Assembly: GCA_025930755.1 (NCBI GenBank)
Contig: JAICOJ010000020.1
Span: 1-43,822 of the forward strand
Source: Gemmatimonadaceae bacterium
GTDB lineage: Bacteria > Gemmatimonadota > Gemmatimonadetes > Gemmatimonadales > Gemmatimonadaceae
Direction: 5' to 3'
DNA: 43,822 nucleotides
In this document: positions 3,013 through 39,031 of the stretch, in pieces
Layout: the number at the start of each line of letters is the position of its first letter
How positions within the stretch are numbered: position 1 is the first letter of the stretch
Translations under genes and position numbers: made by a program
The notes under the pieces: generated by a model
What the model was told of the DNA's origin: nothing
The model's input: the letters and a program-made list of their open reading frames with translations, nothing else
The model's database searches: none

Positions 3013-3103
3013 TGCTGACCACAGAGGCACAGAGGCACGGAGGACGGCAACCGCGCAAGAGCAGTTTGCCGTCCTCCGTGCCTCTGTGCCTCTGTGGTCA
3101 GCA
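3013..3103. repeat. 38-bp perfect inverted repeat with octamer units
   Basis: Arms 3013-3050 and 3066-3103 are perfectly complementary over 38 bp around a 15-nt spacer. The arm contains tandem octamers (CACAGAGG CACAGAGG). It lies between the co-directional kup (stop at 3200) and M14 (start at 2935) genes, downstream of kup on the minus strand. RNA from either strand would form a very stable hairpin, but no T-run follows, so it is not a canonical intrinsic terminator. It belongs to the same structural class as the heptad inverted repeats elsewhere in the window. Confidence 0.9.
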
Positions 3104-17896: not shown

Positions 17897-20415
17897 CAGG
17901 GCTGCTTCCGTGGCGCGGCCCCGGCCGCCGCTGTCGTCTCACCCGCCTGCTCCACCGGCCCACCCACTTCGCTGTGAGCGCGGCCGTCTTCCTCGCGACC
18001 GGTGCCGCCCTGCGCGGGTGTTCGGACGTGAGCGACGTCCGGGAACGCGTAGCTCGGCAGGGCCGTCGGACCGAAGCGGCCGGCGTTGCCCTTCATCTTG
18101 TCCTTGAGCGCCTTCAGGACCTTGTGCGGCGAGCAGGGAATCTCGTCGATTCGCACGCCAACCGCGTCGTAGATGGCGTTCGCGACCGCGGGCATCACCG
18201 GCAGCAGCGGGCCCTGCCCGGCTTCCTTGGCGCCGAACGGCCCACTCGGATCGGGATCGTGGACCAGAATCGTCTCGACGTCGCACATCTCGAACGTCGT
18301 CGGACTCTTGTACTCCAGCATGCTCGGATGGTGGTGCACGACGTTCCGCACGCGGTCGCGATAGGTCATCTCCTCCATGAGCGCTTCGCCCAGGCCCATG
18401 TACACCGAGCCCTCGACCTGCCCGATCACGAGCAGCGGATTGATGGACTGGCCGACGTCGTGCGCGATCCAGATCTTCGGCACTCTCACTATTCCCGTGT
18501 CGGGGTCGACCTCGACCTCGGCGACCGCGGCCGTGTACGAGTAGGCCGGTGAGGGTCCGACCCCCGCGCCTTTGTATCTGCCTGGCGAGCGAGGCGGCGT
18601 GTACGATCCCGTCGTCCCGACCGTGCCGAACATCCCCTCGGCAATCTGCACCGCTTCGGCGAACGTCACCCCGCGGTCGGGCGACTCCGTATCGAAGACC
18701 CGCCGTTCCGCGAACACCAATCGCGACTTCGGCACGTTGAGCTTCCGCGATACGCCGTCGGCCAGGATCTCGCGCGCACGCTCCGCGGCCTGCACGGCGG
18801 CGTTTCCCGTCATGAGGGTGACGCGCGATGAATAAGACCCGAGGTCGACCGGGGTGAGGTCGGTGTCGCCGGTGACGATGCGGATGTCCTCCGGCTCGAT
18901 GCCTAACACGTCGGCGACGCAGTAGGCAAGTACGGAGTCCGAGCCCTGCCCGATGTCGGTGGAGCCACAGAACGCGGCGACGCCACCGGAGCGGTCGAGC
19001 TTGAGCTGCACGCCGGAGTGCGGCATGCTGTTCCAATAGATCGGCAGCCCCGCTCCGGAGATGTAGGACGAGCACGCCAGCCCGACCCCCCGCCCGAACG
19101 GCAGCTGGCGGTACTTCGTCTGCCAACCGCTGCGCTCGACGACCGCGTCGATGCACTCGCCGAGGCCCATCGAGCCGATGCGAAGCCAGTTCGCGGTGAC
19201 GGAGTTCGCGGGCTGCAGGATGCGTTTGCGCAGCACCGCAGGATCGATCGCGAGATCCTCGGCGATCTTGTCGAGCTGACACTCGAGCGCAAAGCGCGGT
19301 TGCGGCGTCCCGTGGCCGCGTTTGGGGCCGCACGGCGCCTTGTTCGTGAAGACGCGAGCGCCGCGAAAGCGATAATGCGGCACCTCGTACGTCACGGTCT
19401 GCAGCGCACCGGTGTAGTAGGTGCTGGCGACGCCGTACGAGCCGTAGGCGCCGCCGTCGAGAAACGAGGTGAAGTCCATCGCCACGATGCGGCCGTCACG
19501 CGTGACCCCCGTCTTGATGCGCATGAGCGTCGGATGCCGCCCACGATGGCAGTAGAAGACTTCTTCGCGCGTGAGCGAGATCTTGACCGGCCGGCCAGTG
19601 CGGCGCGCGAACGCGGCGACGACGATCTCGTGGTTGAACGGATCGGACTTTCCGCCGAAGCCGCCGCCGTTGGGTGTGGCGATGACGCGAACGTGCGCGG
19701 CGGGCATCTCGAGCACCTTCGCCAGCGCGCGGTGCAAATAGTGTGGCGTCTGCGTGCTCGACCAGACCGTCACCTTCCCATCGGGCGACCACTGCGCGAG
19801 CGACGCGTGCTGCTCCATCGGCAGGTGCGTGTTCCCCTCGAAGAAAAACAGGTCCTCGCGCACGTGGTCCGCCGTCGCCATTTCGGCGTCGACGTTCCCG
19901 AACTCCAGGGCGATGTGCTTGTGCACGTTGCCAGCGTCGCCGTAGTCATGGATGTGCGCGTCCGGCGTGTCGACGCTGGCCAACGCATCCTCCACCGACT
20001 CGATGGGCGGCAGCTTCTCGTATTCCACCTCGATGAGATCGCACGCGTCGGCGGCGGTGTCTTCGTCGATCGCGGCGACGGCGGCGACGGGATCACCGAC
20101 GAATCGTACGTGGTCGGGACAGAGCGCGTGCTCGTCCTGCGAGATGGGCAGAATTCCGAACGGAATCGGCAGATCGCGCCCGGTGAGCACGGCGACGACG
20201 CCCGGGTGACGCTCGGCGCGTGATGTATCGATGCGGACGATGCGCGCGTGCGGCTCCCGAGAGCGCAGCAACTTGCACCACAGCATGCGCGGCAGTGAAA
20301 GGTCGTCGGCGAATTTGGTCTCGCCCGTCACCTTGGCGGTGGCGTCGACCTTCCGGCGCGCGGTGCCGACGACTGACTGCGGACTGCGAACTGCGAACGG
20401 CGAACGATCAGTCAT
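17896..20415 (-). CDS. Molybdopterin-binding catalytic subunit, xanthine dehydrogenase family, 839 aa
   Basis: Large Mo-cofactor subunit: VDATAKVTGETKFADDLSLP at the N-terminus, the GGGFGGKSD loop, FCGSTDIGQGSDSVLAY and the C-terminal GPFGAKEAGQGPL, whose Glu is the conserved active-site base. It should act with the FAD and 2Fe-2S subunits encoded on either side (order Fe-S, Mo, FAD). The first 16 residues (MTDRSPFAVRSPQSVV) are translated from a heptad inverted repeat lying across this start, so the true ancestral start may have been nearer VVGTARRKVD. The C-terminal 50 residues are low-complexity. Context with the HcrB-like subunit favours a CoA-ester reductase or hydroxylase, but substrate is unproven. 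Confidence 0.9.
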   Translation of the reverse strand: MTDRSPFAVRSPQSVVGTARRKVDATAKVTGETKFADDLSLPRMLWCKLLRSREPHARIVRIDTSRAERHPGVVAVLTGRDLPIPFGILPISQDEHALCPDHVRFVGDPVAAVAAIDEDTAADACDLIEVEYEKLPPIESVEDALASVDTPDAHIHDYGDAGNVHKHIALEFGNVDAEMATADHVREDLFFFEGNTHLPMEQHASLAQWSPDGKVTVWSSTQTPHYLHRALAKVLEMPAAHVRVIATPNGGGFGGKSDPFNHEIVVAAFARRTGRPVKISLTREEVFYCHRGRHPTLMRIKTGVTRDGRIVAMDFTSFLDGGAYGSYGVASTYYTGALQTVTYEVPHYRFRGARVFTNKAPCGPKRGHGTPQPRFALECQLDKIAEDLAIDPAVLRKRILQPANSVTANWLRIGSMGLGECIDAVVERSGWQTKYRQLPFGRGVGLACSSYISGAGLPIYWNSMPHSGVQLKLDRSGGVAAFCGSTDIGQGSDSVLAYCVADVLGIEPEDIRIVTGDTDLTPVDLGSYSSRVTLMTGNAAVQAAERAREILADGVSRKLNVPKSRLVFAERRVFDTESPDRGVTFAEAVQIAEGMFGTVGTTGSYTPPRSPGRYKGAGVGPSPAYSYTAAVAEVEVDPDTGIVRVPKIWIAHDVGQSINPLLVIGQVEGSVYMGLGEALMEEMTYRDRVRNVVHHHPSMLEYKSPTTFEMCDVETILVHDPDPSGPFGAKEAGQGPLLPVMPAVANAIYDAVGVRIDEIPCSPHKVLKALKDKMKGNAGRFGPTALPSYAFPDVAHVRTPAQGGTGREEDGRAHSEVGGPVEQAGETTAAAGAAPRKQP

Positions 20416-20467
20416 TGCCGTTCGCCGTGTTGGCAGGTGGCAGCTCGCGGTTCGCAGTTCGCAGTTG
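20374..20467. repeat. Heptad inverted repeat lying inside two overlapping genes
   Basis: Left arm about 20374-20406 and right arm about 20418-20467 contain CTGCGAA/TTCGCAG heptads and pair with interruptions. Unlike the other copies it is translated. It encodes the C-terminal tail of the 2Fe-2S subunit (LRTANRELPPANTANGND) and, in another frame, the N-terminus of the Mo subunit (PFAVRSPQSV). The two reading frames overlap by 8 nt within it. Confidence 0.8.
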
Positions 20468-21087: not shown

Positions 21088-22341
21088 ATGTCGCGTCGTC
21101 GTCTTTTTCCCTGCTTGCTCCTCGCGGCCTCCGCGGCCTGCGCCGATTCGCCTTTGCCGTCGGGGGTAAGAGGACCCACGCCCGATTCGCTCAAGGCGCT
21201 CCCCCGAGCGCTGAGTGCGGATGAACAGCAAACCATCGCCGCGAGCAACCGGTTCGCGTTCGATCTCTTCCGCAGCGTCAATACGCGCTTCGTTGACACG
21301 AACGTCTTCATCTCGCCCCTGAGCGCATCCTTCGCGCTCGGCATGACGCTCGAAGGTGCCGCGGGTGAGACCTTCGAGGGGATGAGCCAGGCGCTCCGCC
21401 TTCTGGAGACCGACCGATCCCGCATCAACGCCGCCTATCGAGACTTGATCGAGCTGCTGCTCGACCTCGACCCGTCGGTGGACATGCGCATCGCGAACGC
21501 CATCTTTTATCGCGACACCTTTCCATTCCATCAGACATTTCTCGATACGGTCGCGCACTATTTCGACGCTCGGGTCGCCGGTCTCGATTTCGACGATCCC
21601 GCAACCGTGACACGCGTCAACGCCTGGGCCGACACCGCGACGGCGGGAAAGATTCCCGAGGTCATCGACGCGATCGAGCCGGACATCGTCATGCTTCTCA
21701 TGAACGCCATCTACTTCAAGGGAAGTTGGCGCTCGCAATTCGATCCGGACAACACCCACAACGCCCCATTCGCGACTGAGCGCGGAACGTCCTACGCCGC
21801 GCGAATGATGCATCTGGAGACCGAGGATGTGGCGCTCGCGATGCTGAACGGCGTGCAAGCCGTTGACCTCCCGTATGGCCGCGCGGCCTTCACGATGACG
21901 GCGATTCTCCCTCCGGCCGGCACCGACGTCGATGCGTTCATTCAGACGCTCGATCAAGCGCGATGGGATGCCATCGTTGGCGCGCTCGCCCACCGCGAAG
22001 CGGACGTCTACCTCCCGAAGTTCACGATGACGTGGAAGGACACGCTCAACAGTGACCTCAAAGCGATGGGCATGGAGCACGCGTTCTGCGACTGCGCGGA
22101 CTTCACCCGCATGTCTCCCCTCGGCGACAAGCTCTACATCGATTTCGTCCTCCAGAACACGTTCGTGAACGTGAATGAAGAAGGCACGGAAGCCGCTGCG
22201 GTTACGACCGTTGGCGTCGGGGTGGAGAGCGCCCCGCCGACGATCCGCTTCGACCGCCCCTTCGTGTTCGTGATTCGTGAGCGTTTGTCAGGAACCATTT
22301 TGTTTATGGGTAAGGTCGCCGTCCCCATTAGCGAGAGCTAA
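21088..22341 (+). CDS. Serpin-family protease inhibitor, probable lipoprotein, 417 aa
   Basis: The ATG at 21088 has AAGAGG just upstream and is followed by a signal ending SAAC (Cys18), probably lipidated. The serpin fold is complete: NRFAFDLFRSV, NVFISPLSASFALGMTLEGA, MLLMNAIYFKGSWRSQFDP, VDLPYGRAAFTMTAILP and the terminal FDRPFVFVIRERLSGTILFMGKV. The reactive-centre hinge EEGTEAAAVT (Glu364-Thr373) has the small residues needed for loop insertion, so it should be an inhibitory serpin. Counting from the hinge puts P1-P1' at Glu380-Ser381. Target is unknown; it may shield the cell surface from its own or other organisms' proteases. Confidence 0.93.
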   Translation: MSRRRLFPCLLLAASAACADSPLPSGVRGPTPDSLKALPRALSADEQQTIAASNRFAFDLFRSVNTRFVDTNVFISPLSASFALGMTLEGAAGETFEGMSQALRLLETDRSRINAAYRDLIELLLDLDPSVDMRIANAIFYRDTFPFHQTFLDTVAHYFDARVAGLDFDDPATVTRVNAWADTATAGKIPEVIDAIEPDIVMLLMNAIYFKGSWRSQFDPDNTHNAPFATERGTSYAARMMHLETEDVALAMLNGVQAVDLPYGRAAFTMTAILPPAGTDVDAFIQTLDQARWDAIVGALAHREADVYLPKFTMTWKDTLNSDLKAMGMEHAFCDCADFTRMSPLGDKLYIDFVLQNTFVNVNEEGTEAAAVTTVGVGVESAPPTIRFDRPFVFVIRERLSGTILFMGKVAVPISES

Positions 22342-22563: not shown

Positions 22564-24711
22564 ATGGCGCGCGCGCCGCTGGCGTTTCTCGTGCTGGTGC
22601 TGGGCGATCGTCATGTGCTCAAGAGCACGTGGGGACTTCCGGCCGCGCCGCCGCCCCGCACGGATTTCCCCGCCACCGAATCGCCCTTCGGGTTCATCCT
22701 CGCGCACACGGCGCCGCGGGTCGTCAACGATTCGTGGGACCACGAGGTGCTCCGCGCGCTGCCGATCCTGTCGGCCCTCGGCGTGCGCTCCTACCTCACG
22801 ACGCCGCTCGCCGTCGGCGACACGATGATCGGCGCCCTGGTGGTTCTCGACCACGCGCCCCGCTCCTGGTCGGAGAAGGAGATCGCGCAGATGGACGACG
22901 TGGCGGCGCTCGTCACGACGGAGATGGAGCTGCGTCGCGAGCGATTCGGCCATGAGCGTGCCGTCGCGGAGCACCGCGAGAGTGAGAGTCTGCTTCGCGG
23001 CGTCATCGAGAGCACCGCACTCGCTGTCGCGGTGAAGGACCTCGACGGTCGATATCGAATGATCAACGAAGCGGGGGCCGCCATCCTCGGCTGGGGCGCG
23101 AACGAGATCATTGGCAAGCTGGATCTCGATCTGGTCGATGCCGATCTCGCGCAGCGCATTCGCGATCGCGACCGCGACATTCTCATGGCCGGTGGCGTGC
23201 TGCTCTCGGAGGACGATGCGCCGGGCGCGCCGCACGGCGTGCGATCGTCGACGACCGTCTTCAAGAATGCCGAAGGCGATGCGGCCGGTCTCATCAGCAT
23301 CTCGCGCGTCATCACCGAACGGCAGCGAGCGGAGGAGGCGCTGCGCCTCCTCCACTCGATCGTCGCACGCATCGCCGAGGCGGAAGACTTCTCGAGCGCG
23401 CTGCATCTGGCGCTGTGGCACGTGTGTGACGTCACCGGCTGGGTGTTCGGCGAAGTGTGGATGCCCACCGCCGATGGGCGCTCGCTGGAACGCTCGGACA
23501 TCCGGCACAGCGTGCGCGCGGACTTGCTGGCCCGCGACGTGGCTCATGTCACGCCGCTCCCCCCCGGTGAGGGCCTCGCCGGCCGCGCGTGGTCGAGCAA
23601 GCAGGCGGTGTGGGTGCCCAACGTGGAGGAAGAGCAGGCATTCGCGCAGGCGGGCCATGCCACGGCCCTCGGGCTGAAATCGGGCGTGGCCATCCCCGTG
23701 CTTGCCGCCGACGAGGCCGTCGCGGTGCTCGTGTTCTACATGTTCGAGGTCCGCGAGCAGGATGAGCGCCTCGTGCATCTCATCTCGGTGGTGAGCGCGC
23801 AGCTGGGCGCGTTCATTCGGCGCAAGCGCGCCGAGGATGCGCTCCGGCACAGCGAGGAGAATGCACGCCGCCTGATCGAGAACCTCAATGACGTCATCAT
23901 GGTCCTCGACGCCGAGGGGCGGCTCACGTACGTGAGCCCTTCGGTCGAGCGCATCCTTGGCCGGAGTCCGGACGAGGAGCTGGGGCGATCGATCCTGGAC
24001 TTCGTTCACACCGACGAAGTGGCACGCGCACAGGACATGATCGCCGACACGCTGGGCGCTCCGGGCTTTTCGCGCTCGATAGAGATCCGGGTGCAACACC
24101 GGAACGGGCACTGGCGCTACATGGAGGTCGTCGGCAACGCCGTGCTCGATCAGCATGGGGTGGCGACGATCATCGTCAACGCGCGCGACCTCACCGAGCG
24201 GCAGCGCCTTCAGGCCGAGCTTCGCCGGATGTCGGTGACCGATGATCTCACGGGCCTCAACAACCGCCGCGGCTTCTTCATGCTCGCCGAGCAGGAGATG
24301 AAGCTCGCCAGGCGGCTGAAGAAGGACCTGTTGCTGGTGTTCGTCGATCTCGACGACTTCAAGTCCATCAACGACACCCACGGTCACCAGGTGGGTGACC
24401 AGGCGCTGGCGGAGACGGCGGAGATTCTCCGCACGACCTTCCGCGAATCCGACGTGCTCGCGCGCCTGGGCGGCGACGAGTTCGTGGCGCTGGCGATGTT
24501 CTCGCCCGACGAGACGGACGATGTGATCGAGACGCGCCTGCATCAGACGCTGGCCGAGCACAATGCGCGCTCGTCGCGCAAGTATGCGCTGTCGATCAGC
24601 ACGGGCATGGCCCGGTTCGACGCGCGGAACGTGCAGTCGCTCGCCGAGCTCATGGCGATCGCGGATGACGCGCTCTATGAGCAGAAGAGGGCGAGGAAGA
24701 CGAGGAGCTAG
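22564..24711 (+). CDS. Diguanylate cyclase with GAF-PAS-GAF-PAS-GGDEF domains, at least 715 aa
   Basis: Domains in order: partial GAF (1-115), PAS (about 135-250), GAF (about 260-420), PAS (about 425-545) and GGDEF (about 550-710). The active-site motif GGDEF is intact (residues 636-640) and is preceded at the right distance by RESD, a product-binding I-site, so it should make c-di-GMP with feedback inhibition. The DDLTGLNNRRGFF start of the domain is typical. The ATG at 22564 falls inside the first GAF: in-frame codons upstream encode FDRCARVAAAM, which looks like the missing GAF helix, back to a stop at 22366, yet no ATG, GTG, TTG or CTG exists there. The true start is therefore uncertain. 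Confidence 0.88.
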   Translation: MARAPLAFLVLVLGDRHVLKSTWGLPAAPPPRTDFPATESPFGFILAHTAPRVVNDSWDHEVLRALPILSALGVRSYLTTPLAVGDTMIGALVVLDHAPRSWSEKEIAQMDDVAALVTTEMELRRERFGHERAVAEHRESESLLRGVIESTALAVAVKDLDGRYRMINEAGAAILGWGANEIIGKLDLDLVDADLAQRIRDRDRDILMAGGVLLSEDDAPGAPHGVRSSTTVFKNAEGDAAGLISISRVITERQRAEEALRLLHSIVARIAEAEDFSSALHLALWHVCDVTGWVFGEVWMPTADGRSLERSDIRHSVRADLLARDVAHVTPLPPGEGLAGRAWSSKQAVWVPNVEEEQAFAQAGHATALGLKSGVAIPVLAADEAVAVLVFYMFEVREQDERLVHLISVVSAQLGAFIRRKRAEDALRHSEENARRLIENLNDVIMVLDAEGRLTYVSPSVERILGRSPDEELGRSILDFVHTDEVARAQDMIADTLGAPGFSRSIEIRVQHRNGHWRYMEVVGNAVLDQHGVATIIVNARDLTERQRLQAELRRMSVTDDLTGLNNRRGFFMLAEQEMKLARRLKKDLLLVFVDLDDFKSINDTHGHQVGDQALAETAEILRTTFRESDVLARLGGDEFVALAMFSPDETDDVIETRLHQTLAEHNARSSRKYALSISTGMARFDARNVQSLAELMAIADDALYEQKRARKTRS

Positions 24712-24847
24712 GGGTCAGGAGTCAGGAGTCAGGAGTCAGGGGTGGAAAGGCGAACGGCAGCGCACAGCGCTGCCGTTCGCTCATCTGATGAGGCGGCAGC
24801 CGCGGAGCGGCGGCGCCCTTTCCACCCCTGATCCCTGACCCCTGACC
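24711..24847. repeat. Nested heptad/two-hairpin element, copy 2
   Basis: Left arm 24711-24750 (TCAGGAG heptads then GGTGGAAAGG) pairs with right arm 24817-24847 with few mismatches. Inside are hairpin 1 at 24750-24780 (13-bp perfect stem, 5-nt loop), the linker CTCATCTGATGAG at 24780-24792, and hairpin 2 at about 24791-24816 (one lower-stem mismatch, bulged A, 5-bp upper stem, GGA loop). The arm starts on the last base of the diguanylate-cyclase stop codon and ends 14 bp before the stop of the converging tldE gene. Confidence 0.9.
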
Positions 24848-30960: not shown

Positions 30961-31054
30961 CGACTGCGAACTGCGAACTGCGAACTGCGAACTGCGAACT
31001 GCGAAGACTGCGCGTGCTGTGTTCGCAGTTCGCAGCTCGCAGTTCGCAGTTCGG
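30961..31054. repeat. Heptad inverted repeat (CTGCGAA type) between tolC and macA genes
   Basis: The left arm (30963-31007) contains six consecutive near-perfect ACTGCGA heptads. The right arm (31021-31054) contains five complementary heptads with one C/T variant. The spacer is about 13 nt. The right arm ends 2 bp before the TolC stop codon (31057-31059), and the left arm starts about 10 bp before the MacA start, so the element occupies nearly the whole intergenic gap inside an apparent operon. Confidence 0.9.
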
Positions 31055-31056
31055 TT

Positions 31057-32361
31057 CTAGAGTCCCCTCCCCACCAATGCCTCCAGCTGTGCCTTCGCGA
31101 TCCGGTAGTCGTATCGCGCCTGGATCAGCGCGGCGCGCGCGTTGTTCAGCTCCGTCTGTGAGGTGAGCAGGTCCAGAAGCCTCGAGGCGCCCACCGCATA
31201 CCGCTGCTGCTGCACGCGCACGTCCTCCTCGGCGGCAGCGACGCTCGCGCTCTGAATGGCGATGCGTGCTTCCGCGGTGCGCAGCGCGCCCAGGAACTGC
31301 GACAGCTGCTGGCGTGCGGCGAATTGCGCGTCGCGAAGGGCGGCGGCGGAATTTGCCTCCTGCACATCGGCGCTGACACGCTGCTCCTCGCGATTGAGCC
31401 GATTGAACAGCGGATACGAGGCGGTGAAGCGCAGATTGCTCGAGTAGCGGAAGGGATCGTTCCAGCCGTACCCGAGGTCGTCCCCGTTGGAGCCGCGCGA
31501 GTACGACATGCTGATCGACGGAAAGTACGTCGAGCGCGCCGCCTTCTGACTCGCGCGCGCGACCTGCCATTGGGCCGCTGCCTCGCGAATGGCTGGTCCA
31601 TCGAGGGCGAGCTGCGCGAGGCTGGTGCTGTCCATCGAGATGCTCTGCGGGCTGAGCGTGTCTTCGGCCGGCGTCACGGGGAAGGGAGTCGCCACCAGTC
31701 GCGTGAGCGTCGCCTCGGCGGTGCGGAGCGCGTTCTGAGCCGTGATGAGTGCGAGCTGCGCATTGCCGATCTGGATTACGGTGCGGAGCGAGTCGCTCTT
31801 CGTCGCGGCGCCGGCGGCCATGCGGGCCGTGGCCGTCCGCATCTGCTGCTGCGCTTCGTCGAGCTGAGTACGCGCCGCCGCTTCCGATTCTCGCGCCGCC
31901 AGACCGTCGTAGTAGGCCTGCTTCACATCGAGCGCGATCTGGAAGCGCTGATCGATGTCGTTCGCTTCGGCGGCGTCCTGCTGCGCGCGGGCGCGACGCA
32001 GCTCGTAGAATCGCGAGCCGCCATCGAACAGCTGAATGCTCATCGACGCGCCGGCGGAGCTCGACCAGGGACCCTCATCGTCGACAGGACGGCCCGCCTG
32101 CACGGTGCGCGTCCCGCCTTCCCACGCGCGCGACATGTTGAGGTTGACGTCGGGGAGAAACGCGGCGTAGGCGCCGCGGACGGTCGCGTCGCTCGAGCGC
32201 AGCTGACCACGCGCTTGCACGGCGAGCGGGGCGTTGCGCTGCGCCAGCTGCACCGCCTCATCGAGCGTGATCGGCCGAGGGGCTTCCTGCGCCTTCGAAA
32301 CGCCTGTGGCAGCGAGCGCGGTCAGTACGCAGTACGCAGTACGCAGTATCGCCGTTTTCAC
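31057..32361 (-). CDS. TolC-family outer-membrane efflux protein, 434 aa
   Basis: Starts with GTG at 32361, overlapping the stop of the upstream Spy-like gene (GTGA). After the signal peptide come the two repeats typical of outer-membrane efflux proteins: TLDEAVQLAQRNAPLAVQARGQ begins the first and GPAIREAAAQWQVARASQKAARS begins the second, with long amphipathic helices between. Length is standard. The signal-peptide segment ILRTAYCVLTA is encoded by tandem ACTGCGT heptads (32321-32350), so a short-repeat array supplies part of the export signal. Together with the adaptor and permease it would form a tripartite exporter. Confidence 0.92.
   Translation of the reverse strand: MKTAILRTAYCVLTALAATGVSKAQEAPRPITLDEAVQLAQRNAPLAVQARGQLRSSDATVRGAYAAFLPDVNLNMSRAWEGGTRTVQAGRPVDDEGPWSSSAGASMSIQLFDGGSRFYELRRARAQQDAAEANDIDQRFQIALDVKQAYYDGLAARESEAAARTQLDEAQQQMRTATARMAAGAATKSDSLRTVIQIGNAQLALITAQNALRTAEATLTRLVATPFPVTPAEDTLSPQSISMDSTSLAQLALDGPAIREAAAQWQVARASQKAARSTYFPSISMSYSRGSNGDDLGYGWNDPFRYSSNLRFTASYPLFNRLNREEQRVSADVQEANSAAALRDAQFAARQQLSQFLGALRTAEARIAIQSASVAAAEEDVRVQQQRYAVGASRLLDLLTSQTELNNARAALIQARYDYRIAKAQLEALVGRGL
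32321..32350. repeat. Tandem heptad array inside the TolC signal-peptide codons
   Basis: About four copies of CAGTACG (last one changed to CAGTATC) lie in the first 15 codons of the TolC gene. On the coding strand the unit is CTGCGTA, read as L-R-T-A-Y-C-V. No complementary arm is visible within 100 bp, so this is a one-armed version of the heptad class. Confidence 0.85.
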
Positions 32362-32729
32362 CTGGACTTCGTCTCCTTCGCGGACTGCTTCTTGGCCAGC
32401 AGCTCATCGAAGCGGGCGCGTTGACTCTCGGTGAGCACGCGCCGGATCTGCTGGCGGGCCGTGTCGCGCACCGCGTCCATCTGCGGGCGCACCGGCGCGA
32501 TGACCGCCCGCATCTCGCGATGCCGGCGCTCGACGATGCTATCCACCGCGGCGGACTGCTCCGGGGTCAAGTGAAGCTCCTCCGTGAGCCAGGCGAACGA
32601 ACGCCGGTTGTCGCCACTCTTCGCGCAGCGGTCGCTGGTGAGGACGCGATCGGCCGTGAAGCCCAGTGCGCCGCCCACGAGGAGGGCGCCCAACAGGAAC
32701 ATCAGCGCGAGACTGCGTGAGCGCTGCAT
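32358..32729 (-). CDS. Spy/CpxP/CnrX-like periplasmic stress-sensor protein, 123 aa
   Basis: A signal peptide or anchor helix (MFLLGALLVGGALGFTADRVL) is followed by an all-helical domain with two LTxxQ-type motifs (LTPEQSAAVD and LTESQRARFD), the signature of Spy/CpxP and periplasmic heavy-metal sensors such as CnrX and ZraP. A central RRHREM segment could contribute metal ligands, but the full CnrX ligand set is not clear. Encoded between the anti-sigma and TolC genes, it probably senses metal or misfolded protein and acts on the anti-sigma factor. Confidence 0.85.
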   Translation of the reverse strand: MQRSRSLALMFLLGALLVGGALGFTADRVLTSDRCAKSGDNRRSFAWLTEELHLTPEQSAAVDSIVERRHREMRAVIAPVRPQMDAVRDTARQQIRRVLTESQRARFDELLAKKQSAKETKSR

Positions 32730-36541: not shown

Positions 36542-36544
36542 CTG

Positions 36545-36693
36545 GGGGTCAGGAGTCAGGAGTCAGGGATCAGGGGTGGAAAGGCGCGTCGCCGCTTCGC
36601 GGCAGACGCGCTCATCTGATGAGCAAACGGCAGCGCTCTCGCGCTGCCGTTTGCCTTTCCACCCCTGATCCCTGACTCCTGACTCCTGACCCC
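36545..36693. repeat. Nested heptad/two-hairpin element, copy 3 (inverted orientation)
   Basis: Outer arms 36545-36584 and 36654-36693 are perfectly complementary over 40 bp. Inside are a hairpin at 36584-36611 (7-bp lower stem, one bulged base, 5-bp upper stem, TTC loop, read as GAA on the other strand), the linker CTCATCTGATGAG at 36611-36623, and a hairpin at 36623-36654 (14-bp perfect stem, TCTC loop). The hairpin order is reversed relative to copies 1 and 2. The element starts 3 bp after the SPFH stop codon and ends 3 bp before the stop of the converging LVIVD gene. Confidence 0.93.
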
Positions 36694-36696
36694 TAC

Positions 36697-38973: not shown

Positions 38974-39031
38974 ACTGCGGACTGCGAACTGCGAGCCACG
39001 AGCCGTTAGTTCGCAGTTCGCAGTCCGCAGT
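38974..39031. repeat. Heptad inverted repeat (CTGCGAA type)
   Basis: Arms 38974-38994 and 39011-39031 are perfectly complementary over 21 bp (three heptads each) with a 16-nt spacer. The right arm ends 6 bp before the cyclophilin stop codon (39038-39040); the left arm is 25 bp upstream of the small membrane protein start. Both flanking genes run on the minus strand. Confidence 0.9.

Follow-up and report, generated by a model that had tools for sequence, protein, structure and literature searches.

The accessible parts of the literature describe several repeat systems that resemble the one reported here. In Yersinia, the mobile repeat RU-2 of 168 bp supplies a portion of the signal peptide predicted for YPO1552 (Delihas, PMC2759123; PMC2229807), and in Rickettsia palindromic elements of 105-146 bp are found in protein genes (PMC2229807). 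The heptamers of Xanthomonas/Nostoc (GGGAATC/GGGGATT) are mostly intergenic, lie near gene ends and form 70-75 convergent inverted pairs per genome. In two xanthomonads, 11% and 7% of these repeats overlap ORFs at least partly, and most of them are flanked by the same genes in both species; their lengths and sequences vary considerably (PMC4692102). Marine Beggiatoaceae carry TAACTGA repeats, mostly just upstream of start codons, with only one inverted case and a few copies in ORFs (PMC4679880). Our search of the literature on heptanucleotide and tandem repeats in Gemmatimonadota, which covered few subscription journals, found nothing on the arrays described below. Searches on signal peptides and phase variation yielded just the Delihas papers cited above. 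One of the arrays lies in the tolC gene of a Gemmatimonadaceae bacterium and is a real, apparently recent and lineage-specific coding heptad array, most likely tolerated by its host protein.

The tolC array and the heptad family of its genome

The window, by which we mean the whole stretch of 43,822 nt that was analysed, belongs to a metagenome-assembled genome (G000; 275 contigs, 4,267,153 bases). The Gemmatimonadaceae metagenome bin JAICNG010000006.1 is its nearest named relative and has the same letters as contig C67 of the congener G001 over the aligned stretch. The minus strand encodes a TolC-like outer membrane efflux protein (31057-32361; GTG start, 434 aa), which belongs to the OEP/TolC family according to its match to PF02321 (E 1.5e-55; 188.3 bits vs. 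a curated cut-off of 22). It is located in a gene row with an ECF sigma factor, an LTXXQ-type protein, a HlyD/CusB-type protein and a MacB-type protein. The LTXXQ gene lies upstream of tolC on the same strand (32358-32729), and 4 nt (GTGA) are shared between its stop and the tolC start.

Nucleotides 14-39 of tolC form a perfect period-7 run of 26 nt (32323-32348, minus strand) with the unit ACTGCGT on the coding strand (CAGTACG on the plus strand) in 3.7 copies, three of them full, which is translated as ILRTAYCVL at residues 5-13. The earlier note on this DNA had proposed that tandem heptads partly build the TolC signal peptide. The array is indeed real and placed in a signal-like N-terminus, and the span given for it, codons 5-14, was about one codon too generous. 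As the GTG at 32361, within the overlap with the LTXXQ gene, is the sole in-frame start upstream of the array, the array is necessarily contained in any product with this signal. In 200 dinucleotide shuffles of the window, the length of period-7 runs peaked at 20 nt, and those of at least 19 nt averaged 0.02, compared to 10 runs of at least 20 nt in the real window; the tolC array is therefore far beyond chance. It is barely conceivable that metagenome assembly created it: contigs C80, C252 and C16 do start or finish inside heptad arrays, but the tolC array lies far inside a 43.8-kb contig, in frame, and its flanks are collinear with G001.

Three two-armed heptad elements occupy intergenic positions of the window, one between tolC and the HlyD-type gene (30961-31055; ACTGCGA/TCGCAGT) and the others at 24709-24847 (GTCAGGA) and 38974-39031 (ACTGCGA/G). 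For the tolC array, no second arm was found within 500 bp, in agreement with the one-armed form assigned to it earlier. The window also holds two octamer arrays that are inverted relative to each other (CACAGAGG / CCTCTGTG; 3020-3043 and 3073-3096) with period 8 and three copies each.

Perfect period-7 runs of at least 19 nt numbered 131 in 659,378 bp of G000 (15% of the genome), a density that is biased upward because the sampled stretches were picked from contigs known to hold heptad arrays. With an equal excess of 12 self-matches required at every period, the periods 5, 6, 8, 9, 10, 11 and 12 yielded 0, 2, 3, 16, 1, 2 and 2 runs in this sample, and unit length 7 is thus over-represented against neighboring lengths, as is characteristic of a heptamer family. 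Four cyclic classes, including that of the tolC unit, make up 114 of the 131 runs (AACTGCG 42, ACTCCTG 39, AACGAGG 17, ACGCAGT 16), with 181, 166, 92 and 22 overlapping exact 19-mer matches, respectively, across the whole of G000. The 22 matches to ACTGCGT are spread over 9 contigs, and those in tolC are the only ones within gene calls.

According to our own simple gene caller, 118 of the 131 runs are intergenic, and many arrays lie about 15 nt or less from a gene end. The first 265,678 bp contain 30 clusters, 24 of which show both orientations (our count); three of the six one-orientation clusters lie at contig ends, the remainder being L053:3080, DNA topoisomerase I (topA) and tolC. The family is thus mainly intergenic and often arranged in inverted pairs, which bears out the description of the tolC unit as a non-coding repeat type; the copy in tolC lies within a gene and has a single arm. 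Another 51 runs, from G000 loci found by exact-unit matches, comprised 43 intergenic and 8 coding ones, with none in signals; one of the eight coding rows (L163) resembles ordinary low-complexity coding sequence and was rejected as an array.

In a sample of 390,177 bp from 20 other genomes of the family, only 7 period-7 runs were detected, compared to 0, 1, 2, 5, 4, 0 and 3 runs for the periods 5, 6, 8, 9, 10, 11 and 12. As they were restricted to three genomes (G003, G006 and G021), the heptad type appears patchy across the family. Two candidate agents were searched for in nine genomes. The Y1 (RAYT-like) transposase (PF01797) matched once each in G000 and G016 and in none of the other seven, and reverse transcriptase (PF00078) matched four times in G003 and once in G016, with no match in G000, G001, G006 and the other four. 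Neither of these two families tracks the heptad arrays in this set, in which G001 is 81% complete.

Contribution of the array to the TolC signal and its age

Sec signal peptides are composed of a charged n-region, a hydrophobic core and small residues at -3 and -1. Judged by hydropathy only, the TolC N-terminus is signal-like, reading MKTAILRTAYCVLTALAATGVSKA|QEAP, where the cut before QEAP is presumed from the small-residue rule and is our own reading. Its most hydrophobic 8-mer is CVLTALAA (2.38), of which the array encodes CVL alone, and its most hydrophobic 10-residue window is VLTALAATGV (1.96). After removal of 21 nt on paper, the best 8-mer is AILTALAA (2.33) and the best 10-mer ILTALAATGV (1.99). 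As the hydrophobic peak is nearly the same with and without the repeat, the array would extend the signal and not be needed for its core, which does not bear out the earlier view that it forms the hydrophobic part. TolC export would probably work in either case.

The homologue search covered 60 genomes including the source genome, with tolC homologues in 53; the loci of 29 relatives were kept, and 28 were comparable since one (L046) is truncated before the N-terminus. A heptad run in the tolC signal was present in none of these 28, i.e., the congener G001 and 27 others. Many of the relatives' TolC proteins have, by eye, a hydrophobic N-terminus of their own (ten signals were scored, eight of them from tolC). 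Conserved non-repeat codons for the same residues, which would have refuted the earlier proposal, were not seen; the orthologues differ in the residues at this place. The TolC of G001, the one genome on which the same-genus comparison rests, is 90% identical and starts with MSRTRYLAIAAVAWTGLASA|QEAP. Its signal sequence is diverged and 9 nt shorter in the alignment, with flanks that align well on both sides, and its tolC segment is devoid of a period-7 signal, with equally high scores in 496 of 500 shuffles.

The array is either young or was lost in G001, and young is the likelier of the two, because the array is perfect and absent from the other relatives compared; it appears to be a recent in-frame insertion specific to this lineage. 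The truncated locus L046, which is from another genus, displays by eye imperfect CTATCAG-type heptad arms 3' of the tolC stop, inverted and with a spacer of about 100 nt.

We posit, with a probability of roughly two in three, that the tolC array is a coding instance of the genome-wide heptad family that arrived recently and in frame and persists at a permissive site. The array would have arisen in this lineage near the charged/hydrophobic junction of the TolC signal peptide, where 21 of its bases would amount to a seven-residue extension that the site permits, so that the array could persist. Persistence may have been aided by the unit, which contains a stop codon in none of its frames and whose heptapeptide LRTAYCV, read on the coding strand, is the most hydrophobic (mean 0.83) of seven units compared on both strands. 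For the copying step we envisage slippage seeded by a local heptad or sequence transfer from an existing array.

It is possible, if rather unlikely, that local replication slippage expanded a heptad pre-existing in the tolC signal and unconnected to the intergenic arrays. G001 holds GCGTACT once at the aligned position, within the otherwise diverged stretch, and the accessible parts of two studies report that, in most genomes, heptanucleotides outnumber the other classes of 5-11 nt repeats, possibly owing to polymerase slippage (PMC4679880, PMC4692102). The tolC unit, however, is among the four that make up 114 of the 131 arrays, whereas about 1,170 heptad classes are possible by our count, and a coincidence of the unit is therefore unlikely, unless the process itself favors these units.

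The proposal that the repeat was recruited adaptively as an export signal appears improbable to us. The array does lie within the signal, its heptapeptide is the most hydrophobic of those compared, and the sister genome provides another array in a signal (see below). Against this stand the hydrophobic peak that is kept after removal on paper, the absence of the array from G001 and the 27 other relatives, and the lack of any sign of conservation. On sequence grounds the array may benefit the TolC signal; most likely it is tolerated rather than beneficial.

Even less probable is a phase-variation switch, in which the addition or removal of one or two units would shift the frame and turn TolC off. 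Arrays near a start codon are a classical place for phase variation. They are cited as such also in PMC4692102, in the part accessible to us. On paper, 1, 2, 4 and 5 units end the tolC frame after 29, 10, 36 and 17 codons, respectively, and 0, 3 and 6 units leave it open. However, the array contains only three full units, most G000 arrays are intergenic, and the analysis covered one assembly of the species.

Other arrays read in frame

Rows touching a gene by 1-2 nt were excluded from the count of coding sites. In G000, 13 of the 131 runs overlap a gene call; after four with an overlap of 2 nt had been dropped, nine rows at six sites remained: two sites in topA, the one in tolC, the end of an oxidoreductase gene, a 195-aa ORF near its end, and the inside of a gene with an IMS_C match. 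The G001 sample (320,404 bp) contained 8 runs, five of which share bases with a gene call. One of the five, with an overlap of 1 nt, was dropped, and the four remaining sites lie in a signal peptide, in a carboxyl transferase, between two domains of a MetH-like protein and at the C-terminus of an rRNA dimethylase. By our sorting, the ten sites of both samples are divided into two signals, three positions near C-termini and five internal positions. In topA (L055:201-2789), both arrays (L055:1106-1207 and 1686-1757) are at positions of length variation among relatives. Similar in-frame arrays in topA, at internal sites, in C-terminal tails and in a second signal are most simply read as tolerated insertion at permissive sites. 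As in topA, the arrays at L216:8374-10221 and L200:691-2280 lie in frame in conserved or long genes. At L216:8374-10221, both inverted heptad arms are translated in frame, and apparently, judging by the peptide, also at L200:691-2280.

The second signal belongs to a TPR protein of G001 (L068:17981-19144, minus strand) with the N-terminus MTRPLALGPWPLTRLLCAVLFVAF..., whose n-region contains the array immediately after MTR, the other arm lying just upstream of the start, a GTG by our reading. The heptapeptide of this array, LALGPWP, is the second most hydrophobic among those compared. The G000 orthologue (77% identity) reads MTRWWCALVFVAVSTGLSA and has no array. The minus-strand reading was taken because of the TPR match and this orthologue; an opposite-strand call, from a model trained on that stretch alone, was set aside. 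Further exported proteins with LRTAYCV in their signals, which the earlier note had envisaged, were not found among the exact 19-bp ACTGCGT matches in G000 outside tolC. As for signals with LRTANCE or other units, the classified part of G000 held no second case, and the TPR protein of G001 is one with another unit. Two signals among ten coding sites correspond to a binomial p of 0.004-0.035 for an assumed signal share of 1-3% of coding sequence. That signal sites exceed this share, both with hydrophobic units, is suggestive of a preference over mere tolerance, on a tiny number of sites and an assumed share.

Unit change at shared sites and comparison with known repeats

In order to compare the congeners, the G001 segments of 13 G000 heptad sites with both flanks located in G001 were tested for period 7 against 500 shuffles. 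Two candidates were removed from this comparison: the tandem-repeat (TRF) row at 22261-22280, which is a conserved coding stretch, and the site at 36544-36695, one flank of which was not located in the G001 stretch. Seven of the 13 segments carry a period-7 signal (no more than 2 of 500 shuffles match it). At five of the 13 sites, the unit differs between G000 and G001: GGGCCAG is the G001 unit at 30961-31055 and also forms the array at 24709-24847, CGGATTG is found at 38974-39031, and both topA loops have changed, the second with only about two copies in G001 (2 of 500 shuffles). The unit is the same in both congeners at L233:15661 and nearly the same at L233:17090. No significant period-7 signal was detected in the G001 segments at tolC, 26234, 34442, L234:1854, 20376 and L234:15401. 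The array at 20376-20466 was weak in G001 (33 of 500 shuffles) and therefore not counted. At L234:15401 (orthologue in L251 of G001), an inverted period-9 array replaces the heptads of G000.

The spacer between the arms at 24709-24847 has the opposite orientation in G001 (alignment scores of 54 for the inverted and 19 for the direct alignment), which is what recombination between inverted arms would give. That congeners differ in their unit at fixed sites is not accounted for by slippage alone. As different units are found in the congeners at three intergenic positions and both topA loops, we tentatively raise the idea, which we consider unlikely on balance, that the genus possesses an active mechanism for writing tandem heptads at set addresses, conserved genes included. 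The unit would be swapped wholesale as lineages diverge, with the address kept, and tolC would be a fresh write at a new address.

Taken alone, the tolC array is a repeat turned into protein in a forgiving place, and its interest is modest; that of the unit change at fixed sites is higher. A heptad read in triplets yields the identical cyclic heptapeptide whichever frame is used, and a stop-free heptad can therefore be inserted into a gene irrespective of frame and affect the shape of loops, tails and signals.

The tolC case extends known kinds, as both heptad arrays and intergenic-type repeats read as a signal have already been described. As far as the accessible parts of the cited papers go, it resembles Yersinia RU-2 in that a mainly intergenic repeat is read in frame and gives part of a predicted export signal. 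It differs in that RU-2 is a mobile repeat of 168 bp at the N-terminus of a putative new protein, whereas tolC carries 26 nt of tandem heptads in a conserved efflux protein. With the Rickettsia palindromic elements it shares the tolerated in-frame insertion of a repeat into conserved proteins, although these are palindromes and not tandem heptads. Like the Beggiatoaceae repeats, the G000 arrays are genome-wide heptad direct repeats with a few copies within ORFs, but the forward unit TAACTGA contains stop codons, unlike the tolC unit. The likeness to the Xanthomonas/Nostoc heptamers comprises period 7, a chiefly intergenic location, proximity to gene ends and inverted pairs. The variation at the same sites has a partial precedent there, because those repeats also vary between the same genes (PMC4692102). 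That paper describes one G-rich unit with G-quadruplex potential, whereas several abundant units, and a change of unit in the congener, are found here.
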